DNA from: Rhodospirillales bacterium
GTDB taxonomy: Bacteria > Pseudomonadota > Alphaproteobacteria > BOG-932 > Roseiterribacteraceae
NCBI GenBank assembly: GCA_028291365.1
Contig: JAQGIE010000187.1
Location: 1 to 36,868, forward strand
Length of the DNA stretch: 36,868 nucleotides
Direction: 5' to 3'
This document shows, in pieces, positions 24,102 through 24,828 of this stretch (positions within the stretch are counted from its first letter, which is position 1; every line of letters begins with the position of its first letter). The position numbers were made by a program, and so were the translations under genes. Below the pieces are notes generated by a model. That model did not search any database. It saw only the letters and a list, made by a program, of their open reading frames with translations, and was not told the origin of the DNA.

Positions 24102-24186
24102 GGAAGGGTGGCCGAGTGGTTAAAGGCAGCAGACTGTAAATCTGCCCGCATAGCGTACGCTGGTTCGAATCCAGCCCCTTCCACCA
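24102..24186 (+). tRNA. tRNA-Tyr, anticodon GTA
   Basis: An 85-nt tRNA with the long variable arm of bacterial tyrosine tRNA. The acceptor is GGAAGGG/CCCTTCC, the anticodon stem GCAGA/TCTGC surrounds loop CTGTAAA (anticodon GTA), the T-arm contains GGTTCGAATCC, and ACCA is encoded (24183-24186). Bases 24182-24186 (CACCA) also belong to a 19-bp inverted repeat. Confidence 0.97.
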
Positions 24187-24257
24187 TCCTGCTTCGCGCG
24201 CGTGGCGCGCTTCGCAGGACAAGCCCGGCTCTATCCTGCGCGCGAAGCAGGATGGTG
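24182..24257 (+). repeat. 19-bp perfect inverted repeat starting in the tRNA-Tyr CCA end
   Basis: Left arm CACCATCCTGCTTCGCGCG (24182-24200) is exactly complementary to 24239-24257. The right arm can also self-pair (ATCCTGC/GCAGGAT, 24233-24253) or pair with a middle arm (24205-24219), so several exclusive folds exist. It is the array B counterpart of palindrome A1a. Confidence 0.9.
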
Positions 24258-24321
24258 TCCTCCGAAGCTTTAGCGAAGGAGGACTGGCGTCCCCAGCTCG
24301 ATGCGATTTTGCGCGCGAAGC
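24197..24321 (+). repeat. 125-bp direct repeat, copy 1
   Basis: Matches 24380-24504 with one substitution (T24258 versus A24441) at a period of 183 bp. It contains the palindromic arms and a core hairpin. Confidence 0.93.
24257..24284 (+). repeat. Core hairpin, copy 3 (array B)
   Basis: Outer stem GTCCTCC/GGAGGAC and GAA/GAA internal loop identical to array A. The inner stem is GCT/AGC with a TT loop instead of GCC/GGC, a paired change. Confidence 0.92.
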
Positions 24322-24326
24322 AGGAT

Positions 24327-24354
24327 GCCCGCCGAAGCCTTGGCGAAGGCGGGC
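24327..24354 (+). repeat. Core hairpin, copy 4 (array B), compensated variant
   Basis: Outer stem is GCCCGCC/GGCGGGC. Two positions differ from the other copies on both arms so that pairing is kept. GAA/GAA internal loop, GCC/GGC inner stem. It is preceded by GCGCGCGAAGCAGGAT (24311-24326), as copy 3 is (24238-24253). Confidence 0.92.
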
Positions 24355-24379
24355 TGGTCCAGCCTGTACAGCGGCACTC

Positions 24380-24504
24380 CGCGCGTGGCGCGCTTCGCAG
24401 GACAAGCCCGGCTCTATCCTGCGCGCGAAGCAGGATGGTGACCTCCGAAGCTTTAGCGAAGGAGGACTGGCGTCCCCAGCTCGATGCGATTTTGCGCGCG
24501 AAGC
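24380..24504 (+). repeat. 125-bp direct repeat, copy 2
   Basis: Second copy of 24197-24321. After its end a one-base deletion and a short third fragment follow (24510-24527, GCGTCCCAGCTCGATGC compared with 24287-24304), a decaying further copy. 24528-24585 holds only the hairpin before the GIY-YIG gene. Confidence 0.93.
24440..24467 (+). repeat. Core hairpin, copy 5 (array B)
   Basis: As copy 3 but the 5' arm reads GACCTCC, leaving one A-A mismatch with GGAGGAC. It is the only copy with an unpaired outer-stem position. Confidence 0.9.
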
Positions 24505-24555
24505 GGATGGGCGTCCCAGCTCGATGCTGTTGTTTCCGACCTGCGCGCGGGCAAC

Positions 24556-24580
24556 TCTTCTTCGGGATTTCCGAAGAGGG
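24556..24580 (+). promoter_or_regulatory. Hairpin sequestering the GIY-YIG ribosome binding site
   Basis: TCTTCGG (24559-24565) pairs with CCGAAGA (24571-24577) around a GATTT loop; T558-G578, C557-G579 and T556-G580 extend it. The 3' arm contains GAGGG (24576-24580), the apparent Shine-Dalgarno, 5 nt before the TTG start. Translation would need the stem to open. Confidence 0.6.
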
Positions 24581-24585
24581 CAGGG

Positions 24586-24828
24586 TTGCACTACGTCTAT
24601 CTCATTGAGAGCGAGCGTGATGCCGAGCGGCGCTATATCGGGATCACGCAAGACCTCCGTGCTCGCTTGGCGGCGCACAACAACGGCGAATCGCTGCACA
24701 CATCAAAGTTCGTGCCCTGGCGTGTGGTGACCTTTGTGGCATTCTCCGATCCCTCAAAAGCCCGGGCGTTTGAGACCTACTTAAAGTCCGGGTCGGGTCA
24801 CGCATTCGCGAAGAAAAGGCTCTGGTAA
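24586..24828 (+). CDS. Stand-alone GIY-YIG nuclease-domain protein
   Basis: An 80-residue single GIY-YIG domain. The GIY part is YVYLI (residues 3-7), YIG is in RRYIGIT (16-22), and then come LRARLAAHNNG with the conserved Arg, HTSKFVPWRVV, and the catalytic-type Glu in AFETYLKSGSG. The end is AFAKKRLW, typical of the small COG2827-like proteins whose cellular role is unsettled. I chose TTG 24586: it puts the initiator directly before HYVYL as in relatives, while the in-frame ATG at 24484 lies inside a repeat copy and adds 34 unrelated residues. Codon use includes TTA, TCA and AAA, less GC-biased than neighbours, hinting at transfer. Confidence 0.9.
   Translation: MHYVYLIESERDAERRYIGITQDLRARLAAHNNGESLHTSKFVPWRVVTFVAFSDPSKARAFETYLKSGSGHAFAKKRLW

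Follow-up and report, generated by a model that had tools for sequence, protein, structure and literature searches.

Behind the tyrosine transfer RNA (tRNA) gene of a Rhodospirillales bacterium (Roseiterribacteraceae; assembly GCA_028291365.1, contig JAQGIE010000187.1, positions 1 to 36,868, a stretch called the window below), bulged palindromes are followed by a gene for a stand-alone GIY-YIG nuclease of 80 amino acids. We propose, with a probability of roughly two in three, that this locus is a miniature mobile element with ends like those of REPINs, doublets of repetitive extragenic palindromic (REP) sequences; it would land on the 3' CCA ends of tRNA and transfer-messenger RNA (tmRNA) genes, and the GIY-YIG nuclease would be its sole enzyme. 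That gene and palindromes form one system directed at tRNA and tmRNA ends is well supported by the sequences compared here. The GIY-YIG protein is most likely the mobility enzyme, and we infer the enzymatic step and the mobilisation in trans. The comparisons establish the architecture of the element, its recurrence at tRNA 3' ends, the co-occurrence of gene and palindromes across genomes, the co-segregation of palindrome arms with the protein and a differing occupancy of tRNA genes in two congeners.

The locus and its nuclease gene

A preliminary description, made from the letters of the window, had placed the end of tRNA-Tyr at 24186, palindromes from its CCA onward and an open reading frame (ORF) at 24586 after an 81-bp gap, and ARAGORN, repeat searches and Pfam returned the same layout. 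The host tRNA-Tyr (anticodon gta; 24102-24186, on the + strand like all features of the locus) was found by ARAGORN and by Rfam (RF00005 at 24102-24183), and its encoded CCA (24184-24186) is the putative landing point. Palindrome 1 (hp1, 24187-24219), with a TTC/TTC bulge, begins at the first base after CCA; the covariance model R3, built without the CCA flank, matched 24187-24284 (E 7.6e-15). It is followed by an arm, called c (24238-24257), which is a perfect inverted copy of the hp1 left arm together with the last 5 nt of the tRNA (CACCA), and by palindrome 2 (hp2, 24257-24284), which has a GAA/GAA bulge and is inverted relative to hp1. A second unit (24380-24504) is a 125-bp direct copy, 99% identical to 24197-24321, and contains the right part of hp1, a c arm (24421-24440) and hp2 (about 24440-24467; R3 match 24378-24467). 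The 20-nt arm that includes the CCA end (24182-24201) thus has perfect inverted copies at 24238-24257 and 24421-24440. An additional hp2-type palindrome (24327-24354; R3 match 24287-24354) lies between both units, and a short palindrome, CTCTTC...GAAGAG (24555-24578), stands immediately 5' of the ORF; its right arm is purine-rich and by eye resembles a ribosome-binding site. The nuclease gene (24586-24828, TTG start) begins 81 bp past the last 125-bp copy, matches PF01541 (E 1.2e-14) and is the sole copy of its subfamily found in this genome.

The predicted RNA fold of 24187-24585 was much lower in energy than those of shuffled sequences (z -4.3; 0/100 equally low), and a 21-nt core, with up to three mismatches, occurred four times in the window for 0.02 expected. 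At gathering scores, Rfam matched only two tRNAs in the window. The second of them, tRNA-Ala (cgc; 4816-4891, + strand, ARAGORN), is also a host: behind it, sequence matches, R3 and a palindrome detector located two palindromic units (4892-5018, + strand) without a nuclease gene, which we read as a non-autonomous copy.

A profile of 19 subfamily members was compared with 190 genomes of the class, from 168 genera. It gave 113 matches: 28, spread over 24 genomes, scored at least 55 bits, and the other 85 scored no more than 49. The 55-bit cut-off was chosen after the gap was visible, and the gene with the lowest score above it (G090, 55.1 bits) is incomplete. Gene-bearing genomes have one or two copies. 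Ordinary small GIY-YIG relatives score 30-49 bits and, ending at about column 72 at the latest, do not reach the C-terminal KSGSGxAxAxKR segment of the subfamily. The protein is a member of the GIY-YIG superfamily: Y17, G19, R27, H31 and E63 are among the residues invariant in 49 aligned members, Y5 is present in at least 90%, and we take these conserved positions to include the catalytic Tyr, Tyr, Gly, Arg and Glu of GIY-YIG enzymes. The structure model is confident (mean predicted local distance difference test score, pLDDT, 96.4), and both Pfam and the model indicate that the 80 residues form one domain throughout, with no separate DNA-binding module. The closest solved structures, which have the same fold, are HIGLE (7wme, E 4e-4) and then UPF0213 BH0048, from the UPF0213/URI-type small proteins, and Slx1 (E 1.5e-3 and above); only HIGLE lies below 0.001. 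The ratio of non-synonymous to synonymous substitutions (dN/dS) had a median of 0.115 (range 0.045-0.206) in 45 Mesorhizobium pairs and was 0.03-0.11 in six other pairs. These low values show that the gene is under purifying selection, and its putative catalytic residues are conserved. An in-frame stop interrupts four of the 28 class genes (G166, G008, G002, G159).

Adjacency was scored for all 28 subfamily genes of the class sample and for 44 of the 85 ordinary ones. A tRNA or tmRNA gene on the same strand, at most 400 bp upstream, preceded 22/28 subfamily genes versus 2/44 ordinary GIY-YIG genes (p 4.5e-11), so that position as well as the C-terminal segment sets the subfamily apart from its ordinary relatives. 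In five of the six exceptions (L027 included) a CTCCGCCA end is followed by palindromes; the sixth is L197 of G090. Similarly, among the best 80 of at least 532 homologues from a named collection, a tRNA on the same strand lies 63-301 bp upstream of 68 genes; antisense tRNAs are absent from the upstream 1 kb of all 80, and in two cases a tRNA lies within 1 kb downstream. In five of these 80 a tmRNA precedes the gene (L083, L099, L105, L106, L108). At L051 a tRNA-Ser end that had escaped detection, and at L067 a displaced tRNA end, were recognized by eye; no tRNA end was seen at L063, L073, L077 (contig edge) and L098, and the tRNA of L075 is 1.2 kb away. By record title, the 80 belong to Pseudomonadota, Verrucomicrobiota, Nitrospirota, Acidobacteriota, Candidatus Tectimicrobiota and two unclassified metagenome-assembled genomes (MAGs); many are MAGs, in which misbinning is possible.

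Two further features were observed in this collection. The host tRNA was of class II (Ser, Leu or Tyr) in 46/68 loci, a count that is not corrected for kinship. Remnants of a second, degraded GIY-YIG C-terminus were seen by eye behind the intact gene in L083, L088, L092 and L098, which suggests repeated insertion at one tRNA.

Co-occurrence and spread of the palindromes

The covariance model R1, used with strict filters and at most 22 candidates scored per genome, detected elements in 23/190 genomes. R1 contains 6 nt of the tRNA end; circularity through this CCA flank was excluded because R3, which is devoid of it, puts the same sites on top (13 genomes). Among 52 R1 sites from the 22 genomes other than that of the window, 37 begin no more than 14 nt from the 3' end of a tRNA, and a further one begins 95 nt away. 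Another lies in a permuted alpha-tmRNA, at its CCA end (Rfam); by eye, L171 is tRNA-like and L131 and L155 are displaced ends. Seven of the 52 sites have no assigned neighbour RNA.

Some sites were of other kinds. In L161 (G122) the element starts at the 3' end of the signal recognition particle (SRP) RNA (RF00169), and targets are therefore not limited to tRNA and tmRNA. In L141 (G142) it lies at about 711-809 inside an RNase P RNA gene, the RF00010 match (489-930) spanning the element. The matches in L148 and L159 look intragenic by eye, the latter in an E2-dehydrogenase-like linker and the former in a different ORF.

The preliminary description had suggested a repeat/nuclease system, recognizable by the co-occurrence of hairpin and nuclease across genomes and by homologous genes lying beside repeats. 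Both were found, and the system extends well beyond the window: genes lie beside repeats and a tRNA in the 68 loci mentioned above, and palindromes were present in 16/24 gene-bearing versus 7/166 gene-less genomes. Thus 16 genomes have both R1 element and gene, 8 the gene only, 7 the element only and 159 neither (odds ratio 45, p 1.8e-12, as in all these tests without phylogenetic correction). With distal copies only, the four counts were 11, 13, 7 and 159 (p 2.2e-7), and with the nine profile-source genomes dropped they were 10, 5, 7 and 159 (p 6e-9). In the control, ordinary GIY-YIG genes were weakly associated with the element (11, 45, 12 and 122; odds ratio 2.5, p 0.04). The results of adjacency, orientation and co-occurrence exclude the alternative that had been left open, a gene landing by chance in a repeat-rich neighbourhood.

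The type of palindrome also co-segregates with the protein. On a tree of 100 proteins, which comprised 21/28 class genes and the window, L048 and L067 being dropped for early stops, the gene-adjacent arm class changed 13 times (94 rows) versus a mean of 31 and a minimum of 25 in 200 shuffles; the arm parses of L025, L063, L075, L083, L098 and L183 are doubtful. Host isotype changed 37 times on the same tree (90 labelled rows).

The spread of palindromes within genomes was analysed in the genome of the window (G000) and in a congener (G001). A bulged palindrome was present at most 250 nt downstream of 13/45 recovered tRNA genes in G000 and upstream of 0/45; the same detector gave 13/45 and 0/45 in G001. 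This detector overlooks degraded copies and the upstream match at the selenocysteine tRNA (tRNA-SeC), and one G000 tRNA had only 3 nt of downstream sequence. The 319-bp repeat region had at least 20 BLAST matches in G000, itself included (40/67 candidates scored): 17 lie 3' of a tRNA, a single one (L011) lies 5' of tRNA-SeC, and two are at loci without tRNA. R3 gave 36 matches in this genome, both strands counted.

Among the isoacceptors recovered in both genomes, eight are occupied in both, four only in G000 (Lys-ctt, Pro-tgg, Ser-gct, Thr-ggt) and five only in G001 (Arg-cct, Lys-ttt, Phe, Ser-cga, Val-cac); tRNA-SeC of G001 was not recovered and the orthology of the Met genes was not checked. 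The placement of the gene is swapped: G000 has it at tRNA-Tyr and palindromes only at tRNA-Ser(gga), G001 has it at tRNA-Ser(gga) and palindromes only at tRNA-Tyr. At tRNA-Pro(tgg), where the downstream flank is 81% identical over 1.4 kb, 95 bp more separate CCA from the conserved flank in G000 than in G001; the upstream flanks gave no match between the two genomes, the G000 contig ending nearby. At tRNA-Ser(gct), where both flanks can be aligned, G000 is 46 bp longer. Finally, G166 carries element and gene behind an end beside a tyrosine-integrase gene, and in G192, whose corresponding stretch is homologous (74% over 1.3 kb), that end is present but neither element nor gene follows it; this is a single comparison of an integrase attachment (att) end with and without the element, in a genus of three genomes.

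Three side observations concern G000. Palindrome-like matches flank tRNA-SeC on the 5' and 3' sides alike (L011/L005, contig C150). A CGTC-type REP-like palindrome was seen by eye near this element in L005, perhaps a member of another repeat family. At tRNA-Ser(gga) (L308/L010), a palindrome of about 31 bp is nested, by eye, in a palindrome of the same type, which looks like the insertion of a single palindrome.

Several results weigh against a mobile element driven by its resident nuclease. First, 8/24 gene-bearing genomes had no model match and 7/23 palindrome-bearing genomes had no subfamily gene; palindromes were visible by eye in the model-negative L024, L025, L027 and L194, which indicates that the model is too narrow. 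Second, the protein tree used for arm classes is weakly resolved (50/95 inner forks open), and the shuffles take no account of relatedness or of near-copies, among them ten Mesorhizobium rows. Third, the genes of G000 and G001 are 42% identical and fall into two sub-clades, so that their different places reflect separate arrivals and not one moved gene. Fourth, at the sites compared between these genomes a clean target-site duplication was not definable, and what looks like an 'empty' tRNA-Ser(gct) site in G001 may be a scar. Fifth, matches occur on the 5' side of tRNA-SeC in G000 (L011) and of a tRNA-Ser in G122 (L164).

A further result, obtained from the arms, gives mobilisation in trans no support. 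By a crude measure, the first 8 nt of distal copies were no closer to the gene unit of their own genome than to those of other genomes (5.2 versus 4.9 matches), and 1260/5000 permutations were equally high (8 genomes with a gene unit, 39 distal tRNA sites, of which a few carry no element start). In G001, 7/12 distal sites matched the gene unit at 7 or 8 positions; in G000 the distal arms were mostly unlike the gene-adjacent TCCTGC arm, and G122 consisted mostly of misfits too. Mobilisation in trans by the resident enzyme is therefore unsupported by arm sequence, and dispersal in trans is deduced from co-occurrence alone. The distal copies may predate the resident gene or owe their origin to enzymes that came before it; alternatively, the constant bulged core may be all that the enzyme reads. 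This negative test, together with the different sub-clades of the G000 and G001 genes, reduced our confidence in the proposal.

If distal arms do not follow the resident gene, the palindromes might be an independent REP-like family spread by another enzyme, in whose copies the GIY-YIG gene hitch-hikes. The seven palindrome-bearing genomes without the gene and the low copy number of the gene fit this idea as well. It is, in contrast, difficult to reconcile with the tight adjacency over several phyla, with the co-segregation of palindrome type and protein tree, with the odds ratio of the co-occurrence and with purifying selection on a mere passenger. Moreover, the enzyme that spreads REPs elsewhere, the REP-associated tyrosine transposase (RAYT; PF01797), was not found in 8/10 genomes tested, G000 among the eight, which rules it out as the driver. 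We regard a passenger gene as very unlikely, the least probable of the alternatives considered here.

Another possibility is a classical free-standing homing endonuclease, which would cut element-free tRNA 3' ends and be copied in by gene conversion, the palindromes being structural surroundings only. T4 Seg proteins are reportedly free-standing GIY-YIG homing endonucleases, and SegB is said to sit in the T4 tRNA region; the subfamily resembles them in being stand-alone, selfishly behaving and tied to tRNA genes. Its broken copies, its fixed place behind a conserved gene, its spread over phyla and distal palindromes not specific to the resident gene could all be accounted for in this way. However, gene-less copies at many isoacceptors of one genome imply movement not only into the cognate allele, and the gene-adjacent palindromes co-segregate with the protein. 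Homing endonucleases of the Seg type are phage-borne and have added DNA-binding modules, and we know of no palindromes for free-standing GIY-YIG homing endonucleases; the 80-residue protein, in contrast, is without such a module. With one query protein, at E 1e-10, no copy was found among 50,697 phage or 72,556 plasmid records, and carriage by phages or plasmids was not retained as an explanation; IMG/VR contained two loci, one at a CCTCTCCGCCA end resembling the displaced ones. A 2006 survey reports no GIY-YIG homing endonucleases in Alphaproteobacteria (PMC1564403). A homing endonuclease of the classical kind is thus an unlikely explanation.

Architecture of the element

Eighteen gene-adjacent elements, selected for the long-arm class, were aligned. 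Their consensus is CCA, hp1, a variable spacer, the c arm (inverse of the hp1 left arm) and hp2, with NCCTGC-TTC-GC..GC-TTC-GCAGGN for hp1 and GCCCTNC-GAA-GC..GC-GAA-GNAGGGC for hp2; neither a GTAG nor a CGTC tag is present in it. In hp1 and hp2, 98.2% of 342 cells pair, and two-sided changes occur in 4 pairs (20 cells); in 500 shuffles this cell count was reached by none, the pair count by 9 and the number of pair types by 186. The alternative pairing of the hp1 left arm with the c arm holds in 96.6% of cells, with two-sided changes in 4 pairs (6 cells). ARAGORN placed CCA at the junction in 67/68 loci, and in the remaining one, L057, the c arm carries the matching change. A c arm was present in 58 of the 68 loci searched and reaches exactly 2 nt into the tRNA end (TG versus CA) in 47 of them; in L042 it reaches 14 nt. 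Translation signals were surveyed at 71 of the 80 loci: a strong Shine-Dalgarno (SD) sequence precedes 25/71 starts, a predicted hairpin carries an SD-like sequence in its right arm at 27/71, and none was found at 28/71.

The SD-like sequences within hairpins, the strong RNA folds and the codirectionality with the gene of all 68 tRNAs found within 1 kb upstream raise the question of a function in RNA, in which the GIY-YIG protein would process or control the tRNA-hairpin transcript, by maturing the tRNA 3' end or by autoregulation through the ribosome-binding-site hairpin. Sites at tmRNA and SRP RNA ends are compatible with such a role, and the negative arm test takes away one argument for dispersal in trans. 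The pairs themselves are nevertheless Watson-Crick (333) with hardly any G-T, or G-U in RNA (3/336), which favours conservation of DNA symmetry, and the GAA motif lies on opposite strands in hp1 and hp2, an arrangement that is symmetric as DNA and asymmetric as RNA. The gene is missing from 166/190 genomes although all need tRNA maturation, some of its copies are interrupted by stops, and nucleases of branched DNA are among the nearest solved structures. An activity on RNA is therefore improbable. Of the two roles that the preliminary description had offered for the protein, recognition or dispersal of palindromes is favoured over the processing of their RNA, and it is dispersal in trans that the arm test failed to sustain.

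Known systems and a proposed mechanism

The nearest working analogy to the proposed mobile element is the REP/REPIN system with its RAYT enzyme (TnpA-REP; 'REPtrons'), as described in two papers (PMC8266576, PMC3116915). Like REPs, the palindromes are imperfect and bulged and form inverted doublets (TTC/TTC in hp1, GAA/GAA in hp2), non-autonomous copies exist besides the enzyme gene, which itself stands beside copies, palindrome type is tied to enzyme lineage, and recognition of single-stranded DNA hairpins is plausible. Unlike REPtrons, the enzyme is a GIY-YIG protein (PF01541) and not an HUH/Y1 transposase (PF01797), GTAG is missing, and the copies are anchored to tRNA or tmRNA 3' ends (17/20 matches in G000) and number tens, not hundreds. 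By its enzyme, its lack of the tag and its dispersal, the element falls outside the REPtrons. CGTC-REPs, according to a 2013 survey, are common in Alphaproteobacteria without an associated transposase gene (PMC3733652). They are palindromic likewise; the element differs from them by the missing CGTC tag and by its fixed place behind tRNAs.

Integrase islands that target tRNA genes use the same landing region, the tRNA 3' end. Such an island was ruled out, as a Pfam search of four ORFs over 24085-24994 revealed no recombinase family in the element. In L188, L194, L027 and L067, the element is preceded by a displaced CCTCCGCCA-like end with a P4-type integrase gene next to it; in our reading, an island has inserted itself there, separating tRNA and element. 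No integrase gene was present among the ORFs searched in L025, L063 and L183. Rickettsia palindromic elements insert in-frame into protein genes.

As for the surroundings of the locus, the gene directly 3' of the nuclease gene (24857-25108) encodes a stand-alone Lrp/AsnC ligand-binding domain of 83 amino acids (Pfam, PF01037 only), which is not a recombinase. On the other side, 23149-24012 contains a gene that we take to encode an rRNA methyltransferase (RlmB/SpoU). By eye, it is divergent from tRNA-Tyr in the window and codirectional and downstream in G001 (L282), which looks like a rearrangement at an element-bearing tRNA. Degenerate 27- and 69-bp repeats at 13152-13371 are probably coding.

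In the mechanism that we propose, the autonomous form would consist of CCA, hp1, spacer, inverted hp1 arm, hp2 in inverse orientation to hp1, and the GIY-YIG gene pointing away from the tRNA; the non-autonomous form would be the palindrome pair alone. Transcription starting at the tRNA promoter would run on into the nuclease gene, and in some copies the ribosome-binding site would be provided by the right arm of hp2. The bulged palindromes, in a folded or extruded state, might be the DNA structure that the nuclease recognizes, in the manner of the structure-specific HIGLE/Slx1 branch, with nicks at the palindromes, at the tRNA end or at both. Host repair would then fill the break at the CCA end with a copy of the unit, whether or not this includes the gene, so that new copies adjoin the tRNA. 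Taken further, an 80-residue GIY-YIG protein that, as the sole enzyme, moves its own bulged, REPIN-like palindromes both in cis and in trans, specifically onto the 3' CCA ends of tRNA and tmRNA genes, and is expressed from the host tRNA promoter with, in some copies, its own palindrome as ribosome-binding site, would define an undescribed class of miniature transposable elements, with records from at least five phyla. We advance this wider claim tentatively, at slightly less than even odds. Among the papers listed by searches of the open-access literature of PubMed Central (PMC), no report was found that ties GIY-YIG proteins to tRNA-anchored palindromes.

For a direct test of the claim, the 80-amino-acid protein and a substrate some 95 nt long would be enough. 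Introns, repair and restriction are the settings in which GIY-YIG nucleases have been described; in the open-access literature searched, they do not figure as enzymes of palindrome dispersal. If the proposal is true, the chemistry of palindrome dispersal evolved twice, with HUH/RAYT and with GIY-YIG enzymes, and the enzyme, a small nuclease, may be directed to tRNA ends or to defined DNA hairpins. A large group of small GIY-YIG proteins, so far of unknown role, would then have a function in prospect, and the origin of the hairpins that follow tRNA genes in these bacteria would be explained.

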